From contig CAILNX010000056.1 of NCBI GenBank assembly GCA_903835685.1, forward strand, positions 62,001 to 126,000: 64,000 nt of DNA. Reading direction: 5' to 3'. The translations under genes and the position numbers were made by a program. Numbering within the stretch: the first letter of the stretch is position 1; the number at the start of each line of letters is the position of its first letter. This document shows positions 24,120 to 61,132 of the stretch, piece after piece. The notes under the pieces were generated by a model, which had not been told where the DNA came from, did not search any database, and saw only the letters and a program-made list of their open reading frames with translations. This DNA is from an uncultured delta proteobacterium. GTDB taxonomy: Bacteria; Desulfobacterota; Desulfovibrionia; Desulfovibrionales; Desulfovibrionaceae.

Positions 24120-25799
24120 GTGAAGATCGCCCTCATCCAGCTCAATCCCCTGGTCGGAGACGTGGGCGGCAACGCCCAGGCCCTGGCCCGGGCCGTGACT
24201 TGCGCCGCCGAACTGGGCGCGGACCTCTGCCTGGCCCCGGAGATGGCCCTTTTGGGCTACCCGCCCCGGGACCTGCTCCTGTGCCGGGACCTGGTGGACA
24301 CGGGCTGGCGGGCCGTGGCCGATCTGGCCCGGACCCTGGAGACCGGCCCGCCCCTGGTCCTGGGGGCCGTGGCCCCGGCCCCGGACAACGCCTCCCTGCG
24401 CAACCGGGCCGCCTTCCTGCGCGCAGGCCGCATCGAGGCCGAGTACGACAAGCGGCTCCTGCCCACCTACGACGTGTTCGACGAGTCCCGCTATTTCACG
24501 CCCGGGGACAGGCCCGTGCTGGTGGAGGTGGCCGGAATCAGGTTCGGGCTGACCGTGTGCGAGGACGTGTGGAGCGACACGAATTTCGCGCCCGAGGCCG
24601 CGCGCTACGCCTGCGACCCCTGCGCCGAGCTGGTGGCGGCCGGGGCCCAAGCCGTGCTGAACATCTCGGCCTCGCCCTTCCAGGTGGGCAAGCAGCGCCT
24701 GCGCCAGGACATGCTGGCCAGCCTGGCCAAGCGCCACGCCCGGCCCTTTTTCTACGCCAACCAGGTGGGGGCCAACGACGAGCTGGTCTTTGACGGCCGC
24801 TCCTGCGCCCTGGCCCCGGACGGACGGCTGAAGGCCCGGGGCCAGGCCTTTGCCGAGGACCTGGTCCTGGTGCAGGCCACGCCCGACGGGCGCGGCGGCT
24901 GGACCATGGCCGGGACAATAGCTGACGACGATTTCGCCGAGGAGTCCGAGGCCTGGCGCGCCCTGGTCCTGGGCGTGCGGGACTATTGTCGCAAATGCGG
25001 GTTCCGCACGGCCCTGCTCGGGCTCTCGGGCGGGGTGGACTCCTCCCTGGTGGCGGCCGTGGCTGCCGAGGCCCTGGGTCCGGACAACGTCACCGGCGTG
25101 CTCATGCCCTCGCCCTTTTCCAGCCAGGGCAGCGTGGATGACGCCCTGGCCCTGGCCCAGAACCTGGGCCTGGCCACCCTAACCCTGCCCATCGCCCCCC
25201 TCATGGGGGCCTTTGACCAGACCCTGGCCCCGGTGTTCGCCGGACTTCCCCGGGATGTCACCGAGGAGAACATCCAGTCCCGCATCCGGGGCAACCTGCT
25301 CATGGCCCTGTCCAACAAGCGCGGGGCCATCCTCTTGACCACGGGCAACAAATCCGAGCTGGCCGTGGGCTACTGCACCATCTACGGGGACATGTCCGGG
25401 GGCCTGGCGGTGATCTCGGACCTGCCCAAGACGTACGTCTACCGGATCTGCGCCTGGCTCAACGCGACCCGGGACGCGGTGATCCCGGCTGCGGTGATGC
25501 ACAAGCCCCCCTCGGCCGAACTGGCCCCGGGCCAGGTAGACCAGGATTCCCTGCCTCCCTACGAGGTCCTGGACGCCATCCTGGCCCGGCTCATCGAACA
25601 CGGCCGAAGCCCGGCCCAGGTGGCCCGGGAGGGCTTCGACCCGGCCACGGTGGCCAAGGTCTGGCGGCTGGTGCGCCTCTCGGAGTTCAAGCGCCGCCAG
25701 GCCGCGCCAGGCCTGAAGATCACCAGCCGGGCCTTTGGCATGGGCTGGCGCATGCCCCTGGCCTGCCGCCCGGACCTGGAGACGCCGACAGGGGCGTAG
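24120..25799 (+). CDS. nadE: Glutamine-dependent NAD+ synthetase
   Basis: A 559-aa two-domain enzyme that makes NAD+ from nicotinate adenine dinucleotide with glutamine as nitrogen donor. The N-terminal nitrilase-type glutaminase has its triad at E41 (APEMALLGYPPRD), K111 (YDKRLLPTYDVFDE) and C147 (LTVCEDVW). The C-terminal ATP-pyrophosphatase domain carries SGGVDSS near residue 303 and TGNKSELAVGYCTIYGDMSGG. GTG at 24120 begins exactly at the conserved VKIALIQLNP strand; an earlier ATG at 24033 would add residues that do not look like the family. The length is normal for the proteobacterial two-domain form. Confidence 0.95.
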   Translation: MKIALIQLNPLVGDVGGNAQALARAVTCAAELGADLCLAPEMALLGYPPRDLLLCRDLVDTGWRAVADLARTLETGPPLVLGAVAPAPDNASLRNRAAFLRAGRIEAEYDKRLLPTYDVFDESRYFTPGDRPVLVEVAGIRFGLTVCEDVWSDTNFAPEAARYACDPCAELVAAGAQAVLNISASPFQVGKQRLRQDMLASLAKRHARPFFYANQVGANDELVFDGRSCALAPDGRLKARGQAFAEDLVLVQATPDGRGGWTMAGTIADDDFAEESEAWRALVLGVRDYCRKCGFRTALLGLSGGVDSSLVAAVAAEALGPDNVTGVLMPSPFSSQGSVDDALALAQNLGLATLTLPIAPLMGAFDQTLAPVFAGLPRDVTEENIQSRIRGNLLMALSNKRGAILLTTGNKSELAVGYCTIYGDMSGGLAVISDLPKTYVYRICAWLNATRDAVIPAAVMHKPPSAELAPGQVDQDSLPPYEVLDAILARLIEHGRSPAQVAREGFDPATVAKVWRLVRLSEFKRRQAAPGLKITSRAFGMGWRMPLACRPDLETPTGA

Positions 25800-38135: not shown

Positions 38136-39062
38136 ATGGAAAAGACCAAATGCCTGATCATCGGCGCCGGGCCGGCCGGACTTTCTGCGGCCATCTACAC
38201 GGCCCGGGCCGGGGTTCCCACCCTGGTCATCGGCTGCGCGCCCAAGGTGGCCGGGGACTACGACATCGACAATTATTTCGGGTTTCCCGAGACCATCTCC
38301 GGGGCTGATCTCATGGACCGGGGCCTGCGCCAGGCCCAGCGCTTCGGAGCCGAGGTGCGTTGCGACCAGATCCTGGGCCTGCACACGAGCGAGGCGGGCG
38401 GATTCGTGGCCAAGACCGTGAGCGGCGAGATCGAGGCCAGGAGCGTGATCATCGCGGCCGGGGTGTCCCGCAACCGGCCGAACATTCCGGGCCTGGACCG
38501 CTACGACGGCAAGGGCGTGTCCTGGTGCGTGAGCTGCGACGGGTTCTTCTACCGGGGGAGAAAGGTCCTGGTGGTGGGCGAGCGGGATTACGCGGCCAAC
38601 CAGGCCATCGAGCTTCTGGCCTTCACCCCGCAGGTGAGCGTGTGCACGGGCGGCAAGCCCAGCCAGATATCCCCGGACTACGCCGCCCGCCTGGCCGAGC
38701 ACGGCATTGCCGTGACCACGGCCAAGATCACGGCCCTGTCCGGCGACCCGGCCCTGACCGCCGTCACCCTGGACCCCGGCGGGGAGCAGGCCATGGACGG
38801 CATTTTCGTGGCCATGGGCCAGGCCTCGGCCCTGGATTTCGCAGCCACCCTGGGGCTTGTCCGCCACCGGGACTTCATCGAGGCGGACGAGGATCAGAAG
38901 ACCAATATCCCCGGGGTGTTCGCCGCCGGGGACTGCGTGGGCAAGTTCCTCCAGATCGGCGTGGCCGTGGGCGAAGGGGCCAAGGCCGCGCGCTCGGCCA
39001 TCCGCTTTCTCAAGGAGCGTAAGGAGGGCGGAACACTAGGCGGGCCGAGCAGGACGGGCTGA
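38136..39062 (+). CDS. Thioredoxin-reductase-like flavoprotein lacking NADPH motifs
   Basis: A 308-aa FAD protein of the thioredoxin reductase family: FAD site CLIIGAGPAGLSAAIYTARAG, redox pair CVSCDG near residues 130-133, and the C-terminal VFAAGDCVGKFLQIGVAVGEGAKAA. The second Rossmann motif, normally GGGxSA, reads VVGERDYAANQAIEL, and the HRRxxxR that binds the NADPH phosphate is replaced by CTGGKPSQ. A reductant other than NADPH, such as ferredoxin as in the flavin-type ferredoxin:thioredoxin reductases, is therefore likely (inferred). ATG 38136 has GGGAGA. No thioredoxin gene is adjacent. Confidence 0.85.
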   Translation: MEKTKCLIIGAGPAGLSAAIYTARAGVPTLVIGCAPKVAGDYDIDNYFGFPETISGADLMDRGLRQAQRFGAEVRCDQILGLHTSEAGGFVAKTVSGEIEARSVIIAAGVSRNRPNIPGLDRYDGKGVSWCVSCDGFFYRGRKVLVVGERDYAANQAIELLAFTPQVSVCTGGKPSQISPDYAARLAEHGIAVTTAKITALSGDPALTAVTLDPGGEQAMDGIFVAMGQASALDFAATLGLVRHRDFIEADEDQKTNIPGVFAAGDCVGKFLQIGVAVGEGAKAARSAIRFLKERKEGGTLGGPSRTG

Positions 39063-39122
39063 AATGAGTTGTAATATGTGACAGACCCGGCTATAGAATC
39101 GTTTGCGGCATTTTCGCCGCGA

Positions 39123-39140
39123 ATCGCCCGGCCGGGCGAT
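39123..39140. promoter_or_regulatory. Perfect 18-bp palindrome before the PilZ gene
   Basis: ATCGCCCGGCCGGGCGAT lies 28 bp upstream of the ATG at 39169. It may be an operator or an RNA hairpin in the leader. No promoter elements are obvious next to it. Confidence 0.4.
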
Positions 39141-39168
39141 CGCGGACTCACTCCAAACGGCGGTAGGC

Positions 39169-40047
39169 ATGGCGGCGGCCCTCTCCATCAAATCTCCCCA
39201 GCCCGAAGGCTCGGCAGCCCAGAAGCTGGTCCTGGAGAGCTTTGACACGGCCCTGGCCCAACGCTCGAAATTCCATCTGGTCTTCGACAGCTCGGTCACC
39301 AGCATGACCAACTTGAGCGGCTCCCTGCTGGAATTTACGCCCAAGTCCATGACCATGGAGCTCCTCGGCCCCAAGGCCGTGCCCCAGAGCTGGGTCGGGG
39401 TGGCCCTGACCTGCTATTTCCGCGTCACCGAGCGCAACAACCGCTCGGCCCACGTGTTCTACAGCTTCACCACCCACATCGAAAAGATCGTGCAGAAGAG
39501 CGAGGGCGTGGCCGTCCTCGCCCTGCGGACGCCCGACGCCCTGCAACGCAGCCAGCGCCGCCAGAGCATGCGGGTCAAGATGGACCTGCGCCTGTTCAGC
39601 ACCCTGTCCTTCTGAATCTACGCCCAGGAAGGCTTCGATCTGGCCAACCCCATGCTGGACCTGAAGATGCTGGGAAAAAATCTGGCCCGAACCGATAACC
39701 TTTCGGCCGGAGGCATGCGCCTGGTGCTCACCGCTCCGGTGGTCAAGGCCGCGCCCCTGCCCGTGGAGAAGGGCACCCGCTTCATCATCCAGATGGTCAT
39801 CAAGAATACCGAGGGAGGTCCCGACGACCCCTACTGGATCATCGCCCGGGTCTCCAACGCCACCCGCGATTTCGTGACCAAGGAGGTGGTCTGCGGCATG
39901 GAATTCATCGCCGAGGGCCGCAGCGATCCCGAGACCGGCAAGGTGGCCTGGAAAAAGGTCGTGGACAACGTCATTGCCGGGATCGGCAAGTGGACCTACA
40001 AGTGGAACCTCGACGTCTACCGGGAAAAGGGCATCTCCAACGCCTGA
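39169..40047 (+). pseudogene. PilZ-domain (YcgR-like) gene interrupted by an in-frame TGA
   Basis: One frame runs from ATG 39169 to the stop at 40047 with a single internal TGA at 39613-39615. The first part (148 codons) has a YcgR-like N-terminal domain and the PilZ motif RRQSMR (RxxxR). After the TGA the frame continues as DNLSAGG (the (D/N)xSxxG motif) and the remaining PilZ strands (FIIQMVIKNTEG, WIIARVSNATRD, CGMEFIAEG). The two c-di-GMP motifs thus fall on opposite sides of the stop. A change of TGG (Trp) to TGA, a sequencing error, or recoding could explain it; no convincing SECIS hairpin follows. An ATG at 39652 could restart the second part but has no ribosome site. Confidence 0.8.
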
Positions 40048-40085
40048 TTTCCCTGCCCAACGCGTGACCCCTCCTGGGAGACCCC

Positions 40086-40814
40086 ATGACCCGCAAACAC
40101 ATCCTCACCCTCTGCGTGGTGGCCGGCCTGGTCATCGCCATGACCCTCAAGCTCACCTCCCACGCTCCGGTCACGGCCCAGTCCCCCGCCACTCCCGACC
40201 AGGCCCTGGCCCAGCTCAAAGACGGCAATCTGCGCTACGTGAGGGGCGTGAGCATGCACCCCCGGCAGGACCAGATCCGGCGAACCGAGACCGTGAAGAA
40301 CGGCCAGCATCCCTTGGCCACGGTGGTGGGCTGTTCGGACTCCCGCGAGCCCCTGGAGATCATCTTCGACCAGGGCGTGGGCGATCTTTTCGTGGTCCGG
40401 GTGGCCGGAAACGTGGGGGGCACGGACGAGGTGGCCTCCATCGAATACGGGACCGAACACCTGTCCACCCCGATCGTCCTGGTCCTGGGGCACACCAAAT
40501 GCGGGGCGGTCACGGCCACGGTCCAGAAGGCCGCGGTCGAAGGCAGCATCCCGGCCCTGATCAACCAGATCGCCCCGGCCGTGGACCAGGCCCGGGCCGC
40601 CGATCCCAAGGCCACGGGTGACGCCCTGGTGGAAAAGGCCATCCGGGCCAATGTGCACAAGACCATGGCCGACCTGTTCCAGAAGAGCCAGATCGTCCGC
40701 CACCTGGTGGCCGAGGGCAAACTCAAGGTCGTGGGCGGGGTCTACGACCTGGACTCGGCCAGCATCGAATGGCTGGGCGAACATCCGGACCAGGCCAAAT
40801 TCCTGGCCCACTAG
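40086..40814 (+). CDS. Exported beta-class carbonic anhydrase
   Basis: A 242-aa zinc enzyme that interconverts CO2 and bicarbonate. The N-terminal 30 residues (basic MTRKH, hydrophobic ILTLCVVAGLVIAMTL, then APVTAQS) form a signal peptide or anchor, so it acts outside the cytoplasm, which is unusual for the beta class. Zinc ligands are the Cys of VGCSDSREP (near residue 83) with its Asp-Arg dyad, and the His and Cys of HTKCGA (near 136-139). ATG 40086 has GGGAG at 6 nt. The gene follows the PilZ gene by 38 nt and may share its transcript. In a sulfate reducer it may help import CO2 or buffer pH at the surface. Confidence 0.92.
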   Translation: MTRKHILTLCVVAGLVIAMTLKLTSHAPVTAQSPATPDQALAQLKDGNLRYVRGVSMHPRQDQIRRTETVKNGQHPLATVVGCSDSREPLEIIFDQGVGDLFVVRVAGNVGGTDEVASIEYGTEHLSTPIVLVLGHTKCGAVTATVQKAAVEGSIPALINQIAPAVDQARAADPKATGDALVEKAIRANVHKTMADLFQKSQIVRHLVAEGKLKVVGGVYDLDSASIEWLGEHPDQAKFLAH

Positions 40815-47328: not shown

Positions 47329-47621
47329 TCGCTGTCACCGCCCGCTTCCAGGCCAAGCGCGGCAAGGAGGCCGAACTGGAGGCCCTCCTGCGCTCCTTCG
47401 TGCCCCGGACCTCCGAGGAGCCCGAGGTCCTGGCCTACGCCCTGCACACCGTGTCCGGGCAACCCAGGACCTTCTTCTTTTACGAGCGGCACGCAAGCCA
47501 GCAGTCCTTCGAGGCCCACCTGGCCAGGCCCTATCTCCAGGAGGCCCTGGCCCGCTTTCCGGAACTGCTGGACGCCCCGGCCGTGCTGGAGATCATGGAG
47601 ATTCTGGACGAAAAGGATTGA
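47325..47621 (+). CDS. ABM-domain protein (antibiotic biosynthesis monooxygenase fold)
   Basis: A 98-aa dimeric ferredoxin-like fold protein: IAVTARFQAKRGKEAELEALLRSF, then AYALHTVSGQPRTFFFYERHASQQSFEAHLARPYLQEAL with the conserved His. The family includes quinol monooxygenases (YgiN) and heme-degrading enzymes. It overlaps mqnD as ATGA, so it is translationally coupled to menaquinone synthesis, which suggests a role with naphthoquinone intermediates. An oxygen-using role would be odd in an anaerobe, so it may bind or protect quinols instead (inferred). Confidence 0.8.
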   Translation: MIAVTARFQAKRGKEAELEALLRSFVPRTSEEPEVLAYALHTVSGQPRTFFFYERHASQQSFEAHLARPYLQEALARFPELLDAPAVLEIMEILDEKD

Positions 47622-50249: not shown

Positions 50250-51464
50250 CTAGGAGTTCCCCTCGTCTCCCAGGAGGAACCGGGCCGGGTCGATCTTGTA
50301 GCTCTCGTGGTCCAGGCATTCGGTGATTTCCAGGCGGCGGCCCTTGGACATATGCGCCTTGAACAGGTCCACCTTGCGGATCGGGGCCGGACGCATGTCC
50401 GCATCAAAGGCCACCTTGACCACGGGCTCGTGCGCCCGGTAGGGATTGGACTCGCAGACCACCCCGCAGGTGCCGTCGGACAGGCGCACCAGGCTGCCCA
50501 CCGGATAGACTCCCAGGAACTTGATGAAAGAGGTCAAGAGCCCGGTCGCAAAGGTCTGGTCCCGCATGCCGAACATGATCTTCAGGCTCTTGCTCGGGCT
50601 GATGCTCTCCTTGTACACCCGGCGGCTGGTGATGGCGTCGTAGATGTCGGCCAGGGCCAGGATGCGGCCGAACAGGCTGATCTGGTCCCCGGACAGGCCG
50701 CGCGGATAGCCCTTGCCGTTGAACTTCTCGTGGTGCTCCACAATGCCCCGGAGCACGTCCGGCCCCACGGCCTGCTGCTCTTTCAGCATCTGATAGCTGC
50801 GCAAGGGGTGGGCCTTGATGATCTCGAACTCCTCGTCCGTGAGCTTGTCCGGCTTGTTCAGCACGGCCGGGGGGATGCGGGCCTTGCCCAGGTCGTGGAA
50901 CAGGCCGGAGAGCCCCAGGGGCTTGAGCCGCTCCGGGATCAGGCCCAGGAACTGGCCGAAGGCCACGGCGATGACCGCCACGTTGATGCAGTGGGTGAAG
51001 GTATACTCGTCGTAGGAGCGCAGCTTGCTGAAACTCACCAGGGCGTCGCGGTTGCGGGCCACGCTTTGGATCACGTCGTCCACCAGGGCCCCGGACTTCT
51101 CATAGTCCACGGTGCCGTCGGTCTGGGCGCTGCGTATGAAATCATGGGCGAAGGCCACGGAATCCTGGTAGATTTGTTGGGCGACCTCGGCCTCTTCCTC
51201 GATGGACACCAGGTTGGGGGCAAAGGTCTGGCCGTCGGTCTGGCCCAGGACATCGGGCTCATGCACCCGGCCGAATTCGTAACTGCCCCGATCCGTATCC
51301 ACCACGACGTTCTGAAAGCCCTGGCGCACGATCCGGTCCAGGGCCTCCTGGGTGGCCACCTCCCCTTCCTCGGCAAAAAGATAGGGGTGTTCGATCCAGG
51401 GCAGGCCGGTATCAGCCACGAACATGCCGACCTTCAAATCCTTGATGCTGATTTCCTTGTACAT
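50250..51464 (-). CDS. HD-GYP domain phosphodiesterase (DUF3391-HD-GYP)
   Basis: A 404-aa protein with an N-terminal DUF3391 domain (IKDLKVGMFVADTGLPWIEHPYLF) and a complete HD-GYP domain: HCINVAVIAVAFG, FHDLGKARIPPAVLNKPDKLTDEEF, AHPLRSYQML, and EHHEKFNGKGYPRGLSGDQIS. These metal-binding residues are intact, so c-di-GMP hydrolysis is expected. The C-terminus has a further beta-rich region. No membrane segment is present. The interrupted PilZ gene at 39.2 kb and this enzyme show c-di-GMP signalling in the organism. Confidence 0.92.
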   Translation of the reverse strand: MYKEISIKDLKVGMFVADTGLPWIEHPYLFAEEGEVATQEALDRIVRQGFQNVVVDTDRGSYEFGRVHEPDVLGQTDGQTFAPNLVSIEEEAEVAQQIYQDSVAFAHDFIRSAQTDGTVDYEKSGALVDDVIQSVARNRDALVSFSKLRSYDEYTFTHCINVAVIAVAFGQFLGLIPERLKPLGLSGLFHDLGKARIPPAVLNKPDKLTDEEFEIIKAHPLRSYQMLKEQQAVGPDVLRGIVEHHEKFNGKGYPRGLSGDQISLFGRILALADIYDAITSRRVYKESISPSKSLKIMFGMRDQTFATGLLTSFIKFLGVYPVGSLVRLSDGTCGVVCESNPYRAHEPVVKVAFDADMRPAPIRKVDLFKAHMSKGRRLEITECLDHESYKIDPARFLLGDEGNS

Positions 51465-59920: not shown

Positions 59921-61132
59921 CTAGAGCATGCTCCGCAGACGCGAGGCCACGGCGTCCAGGAACTCCTCGGTGTTGAGCACGGCCTTGGCCTTGGGCTCGG
60001 CGATGCGGGCCATGTCCCCGGTCATCTCCCCGGCCTCGATGGTGGCGATGGCCGCCTTTTCCAGGGTGTCGGCGAAACGGACCACCTCGGGGCTTGCGTC
60101 CAACTCCCCGCGCTTGCGTAAGGCCCCGGTCCAAGCGAAGATGAGGGCCATGCCGTTGGAGGAGGTCTTCTCCCCGGCCAGGTGCTTGTAGTAGTGGCGC
60201 TGCACCGTGCCGTGGGCCGCCTCGTACTCGAAGCAGCCGTCCGGGGACACCAGCACCGAGGTCATCATGGCCAGGGACCCGAAGGCCGAGGCCAGCATGT
60301 CGCTCATGACGTCCCCGTCGTAGTTCTTGCAGGCCCAGAGGAACCCGCCCTCGCTCTTCATCACCCGGGCCACGGCGTCGTCGATCAAGGTGTAGAAGTA
60401 CTCGATGCCTGCCTGCTTGAAGGCCGCATCGTATCCGGCCTGGTACACGGCCTGGAAAACCTCCCGGAACCTCGCGTCGTAGGTCTTGGAGATGGTGTCC
60501 TTGGTGCTGAACCACAGGTCGATCTTCTGGTCCAGGGCAAAGGTGAAGCAGGCCTTGGCGAAGCTCTCGATGGAGGCGTCGGTGTTGTGCAGGCCCTGGA
60601 TCACGCCCGGGGCCGTGAAATCGTGGATGGTCTTGCGGATAGGCTCGCCCCCGCCCGCCGGGGTGAACACGATCTCGGCCTTGCCCGCGCCGGGCACGGC
60701 GATCTCGGCGTTCTTGTACACGTCGCCATAGGCATGGCGGCCAATGACAATGGGCTTCTTCCATCCGCTGACCACGGGCCTCACGTTGCCCACCAGGATG
60801 GGCGCGCGGAACACCGTGCCGTCCAGCATGGCTCGGATGGTGCCGTTGGGGCTCTTCCACTGTTTTTTCAGCTTGTATTCGTCCATCCGCTTGGCGTCCG
60901 GGGTGATGGTGGCGCATTTCACCCCGACCTTGTGCCGCCTGATGGCCAGGGCCGCGTCCTTGGTGACCTGATCCTCCGTGGCGTCGCGGTTGGACACGTG
61001 CAAGTCGTAGTATTCCAGAGGGATATCCAGAAAGGGCAGAAGGAGCTTGTCCTTGATCATGGCCCACATGATCCGGGTCATCTCGTCCCCGTCGATCTCC
61101 ACCAGGGGGTTTTTCACAACAATCTTTGGCAT
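59921..61132 (-). CDS. icd: NADP-dependent isocitrate dehydrogenase
   Basis: A 403-aa enzyme of the eukaryotic-type (subfamily II) NADP-IDH, which decarboxylates isocitrate to 2-oxoglutarate. Motifs are [91 protein letters not shown], and [27 protein letters not shown] 61132 begins the family's MPKI strand after GGAG; the frame stays open upstream without support. It probably serves glutamate synthesis in a sulfate reducer with an incomplete citric-acid cycle. Confidence 0.96.

Follow-up and report, generated by a model that had tools for sequence, protein, structure and literature searches.

A probable recent nonsense mutation in a YcgR-like PilZ gene of an uncultured Desulfovibrionaceae bacterium

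Surveys of recent bacterial nonsense pseudogenes (PMC522871, PMC7918605) describe genes that contain one stop, are otherwise intact and have intact relatives elsewhere. The YcgR-like receptors MotI/DgrA (5vx6), MrkH (5kgo) and PP4397 (3kyf) consist of an N-terminal domain, an RxxxR linker and a PilZ barrel with a (D/N)xSxxG motif. A gene answering to both descriptions lies in the window, the 64,000-nucleotide stretch of DNA that was analysed. It has the same parts as these receptors but, unlike them, is interrupted by a stop within the first strand of its barrel. Compared with the surveyed pseudogenes it showed nothing notable, and the stop was unshared with other species. We propose, with a probability of approximately 0.72, that a recent nonsense mutation made a dispensable YcgR-like PilZ gene a young pseudogene and that c-di-GMP binding was lost. 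The ancestral gene would have encoded an N-terminal YcgR-like domain and a PilZ c-di-GMP receptor, a single transition would have turned a Trp codon into TGA, and translation would now yield 148 residues and break off within the first β-strand of the barrel. Such a truncation would abolish c-di-GMP binding and leave a young pseudogene.

The frame extends from position 39169 to 40047 on the plus strand, and its translation gave 292 codons followed by a terminal TGA (40045–40047), the place of which agrees with the end of the alignment with the relatives. Exactly one internal stop was present, the TGA at 39613–39615, corresponding to codon 149. The 5′ part (39169–39612, plus strand), delimited by translation, homology through the stop and the fold model, comprises the N-terminal YcgR/PilZN-like domain, the RxxxR motif and the beginning of the first strand of the PilZ barrel, with a predicted product of 148 residues. 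The 3′ part (39616–40044, plus strand), recognised by translation, Pfam, alignment and the fold model, is conserved and comprises the remaining PilZ barrel with the NxSxxG motif and a C-terminal helix; no second stop or frameshift was found in it. The tblastn and HMM matches crossed the stop unbroken and without a gap, covering nearly the whole frame, so that the split frame is not due to chance, and one protein family matched both sides of the TGA. The best relatives were 40–41% identical to the split-frame protein, 41% being the highest value. The GC content at third codon positions was 0.905 before the stop and 0.860 after it, and both sides were coding-like by codon position. Of the columns that at least 90% of the relatives share, the split gene kept 14 of 14 after the stop and 12 of 14 before it, within the range of the intact relatives. 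The preliminary description had reported a frame open save for one TGA at 39613–39615, RxxxR before it and (D/N)xSxxG after it, protein-like sequence on both sides and a gene otherwise undecayed. These observations were borne out in turn by the translation, by the alignment of the motifs, by the homology through the stop with the GC content by codon position, and by the conserved columns. The lack of decay in the 3′ part means that the stop arose recently, is an error or is read through.

The two motifs read QRRQSMR and DNLSAGG. In an alignment of 42 sequences (A1), R131 and R135 of the first and S179 and G182 of the second were invariant, and N177 was nearly so. The split gene scored 16.3 bits against the Pfam PilZ model, below the cut-off of 22.5 bits, a gathering score which is a detection threshold and not a structural feature, in a family that is divergent; among the 42 aligned sequences of the family, 22 matched Pfam PilZ at E ≤ 0.01. 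These matches, together with the two motifs and the fold, are the basis of the PilZ assignment. With the TGA read as Trp, an AlphaFold2 model (mean pLDDT 90.9, pTM 0.72) showed a two-domain fold with a PilZ barrel. Foldseek matched it to MotI/DgrA, MrkH and PP4397 with E-values of 4e-9 to 2e-7 over 260–281 columns, at an identity of only 11–14%, with TM-scores of 0.3–0.5 and a different orientation of the domains. From the motifs and these structural matches the ancestral gene is assigned as a YcgR-like two-domain receptor, which presumably bound c-di-GMP. The neighbours, a trxB-like oxidoreductase before the gene and a carbonic anhydrase after it, gave no hint of the process controlled, be it a flagellar brake or another.

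Of 58 distinct relatives with an intact gene, 54 had TGG (Trp) at codon 149. Many of these relatives share a genus, and the 54 cases are therefore not independent. The Trp nevertheless spanned several families of the order. The other four relatives had Phe, Ile, Tyr and Leu (one each), and neither Cys nor TGA or any other stop was observed at this codon in the 58, which are the intact relatives with a residue at the site (L011 and L061, being one gene, were counted once). The change from TGG to TGA is one transition, and with TGG in 54 of the 58 relatives a Trp codon is the most likely origin of the stop. An in-frame stop thus stands where homologues carry a sense codon one substitution away, as is characteristic of nonsense pseudogenes. 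The preliminary description had expected Trp in the orthologues, and the residue found supports two of its options, a nonsense mutation from TGG and a sequencing error. Relatives with two separate genes at the locus, which it had named as evidence against its claim, were not found, all the intact relatives being fused. Neither trxB nor carbonic anhydrase nor other neighbours were found next to the best family matches, and the loci that best matched carbonic anhydrase had no family relative next to them; scans of named genomes with the protein found no relative. Without synteny, the relatives are members of the family and not proven positional orthologues.

The fold model placed codon 149 in the strand 143–150, the first of the PilZ barrel after RxxxR. 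The 148-residue product would keep the N-terminal domain and RxxxR and lose NxSxxG with the rest of the barrel. The stop lying inside the first barrel strand, we infer that the product no longer binds c-di-GMP and is inactive. The correctness of the sequence and the recency of the mutation are likewise presumed. Two facts make a genuine, young mutation plausible: the copy number of the family varies among genera, and another copy, in genome G201, is broken by a stop of its own. This copy (L063, G201:C27:34919–35755), in another genus, carries a single in-frame TAG at an invariant Gln before RxxxR and is otherwise intact. This second break arose independently in the same region of the gene and indicates that the family can lose members. 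Among the matches listed from 348 genomes of the order, in which the genus of the window is represented by one genome, the source itself, the window's gene and that of G201 were the only full-length copies with a confirmed single internal stop.

Besides the split gene, nine PilZ domains in the source genome scored above the Pfam cut-off, and the family of the split gene has at least one more member there. An HD-GYP protein with DUF3391 and HD_5 (PF13487) domains, identified by domain match, is encoded at 50253–51464 on the minus strand. The preliminary description had stated that the cell would lose one c-di-GMP effector while keeping an HD-GYP enzyme; the enzyme is indeed there, and the functional consequence was overstated, since nine other PilZ domains and at least one further family member remain. 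With these domains and the HD-GYP gene kept, the cell would lose at most one of several receptors.

Under the main rival to a nonsense mutation, the gene of the organism is intact and the TGA stems from an error in base calling or assembly, or from a minority variant of a mixed sample. We consider this unlikely, and the most serious of the alternatives. The change is a single base and a transition in a gene otherwise undamaged, in a draft assembly of 65 contigs, and the lack of decay downstream is what an error would give, as would readthrough with a functional product. On the other hand, the site is not in a homopolymer, and the assembly seems accurate: three large families gave 228 domain matches in the source genome (9 of PF07238, 69 of PF00005 and 150 of PF00072, approximately 26,000 codons), none with an internal stop. 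This absence argues against frequent errors and not against a single one. A disrupted gene or a base-call error, either of them an ordinary event, is most likely here, rather than a special reading of the codon.

The stop might also be real and leaky, the near-cognate tRNA-Trp sometimes reading UGA and restoring the Trp, so that a little full-length receptor would be made. In Escherichia coli UGA is known to be leaky, being read as Trp with very low frequency (PMC7918605), and readthrough products have been shown for nudL and pheL (PMC5373646). Together with these precedents, the residue inserted would be the conserved Trp, and the 3′ part is undecayed. Against this reading, the tRNA-Trp gene has the anticodon CCA on a stem of the full 5 bp (the one tRNA-Trp gene matched by pattern was covered), and not the 4-bp form tied to raised UGA readthrough (PMC13092985). 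The TGA was conserved in no relative, shared stops having been relied on to exclude artefacts in the earlier survey (PMC7918605), and a basal leak would not be regulation. We regard a leaky stop as quite improbable. Its elaboration, in which a trickle of full-length receptor would be accompanied by an excess of free N-terminal domain and the efficiency of termination would set the dose of c-di-GMP effector, appears more improbable still.

Decoding of the UGA as selenocysteine had to be taken seriously, as the source genome encodes SelB and tRNA-Sec, both above cut-off, and three genes for formate dehydrogenase alpha that contain an in-frame TGA (L091, G000:C39:23330–26362; L093, C64:25276–28287; L094, C26:105658–108669). 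By this gene content the organism is a producer of selenoproteins. Like the PilZ gene, these three have an in-frame TGA in an open coding frame. All three share the hairpin sequence GGCTCTGGCAGAGTCG approximately 20 bases past the start of the TGA, whereas this sequence is absent after the PilZ TGA, which is without a SECIS-like hairpin, and the relatives have Trp and never Cys. No Rfam match was found within 39000–40200. Folding after the PilZ TGA was no better than that of shuffles (z 0.28; −0.03 and 0.50 in a second test), a weak test given that one of the three formate dehydrogenase controls also folded no better than shuffles, so that the shared hairpin sequence and the residue in the relatives carry the argument. 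Codon 149, moreover, is placed by the model in a barrel strand and not in a redox motif. TGA terminates 16 of the 40 long coding-like frames of the window, which excludes a genetic code with UGA as Trp, a code also made unlikely by the tRNA-Trp(CCA) with its 5-bp stem. The UGA recoding offered by the preliminary description thus found no backing in the hairpin it had suggested looking for by RNA folding, in the relatives, in the canonical tRNA-Trp or in the use of TGA as an ordinary terminator, and selenocysteine here is extremely unlikely. Equally remote is a pair of working genes, in which translation of the PilZ part would restart at an internal codon: an in-frame ATG does lie at 39652, 36 bases past the stop codon, but it lacks a ribosome-binding site, which makes a restart unlikely, the ATG at 39715 has a GGAGG just one base away, the split would cut a β-strand and part RxxxR from NxSxxG, and the intact relatives are all fused.

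The stop has little meaning beyond annotation, where the gene should be labelled disrupted rather than a selenoprotein gene or a pair of genes. Since the source genome really uses selenocysteine, the case usefully illustrates how a TGA open to misreading as a Sec codon is ruled out as such by the relatives and the lack of a SECIS element. Other same-frame pairs in the window were looked at, at 25797, 26619, 47619 and 60729. At 47619 the stop separates two different families, the pair at 25797 follows a complete NAD synthase, and that at 60729 is opposite a long minus-strand frame. In the order, stops flagged in G197, G337, G199, G202 and G005:C82 lay outside the genes, the frames of which are intact. 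G005 was also rejected as a second genus with an internal TGA, this TGA being the terminal stop of the gene itself. The same genome holds a fragmentary copy near a contig end (L043, G005:C150:9918–10622). Its N-terminal part is divergent and a stop lies close to its beginning; the copy may be decaying. Five further family matches were present in G005.
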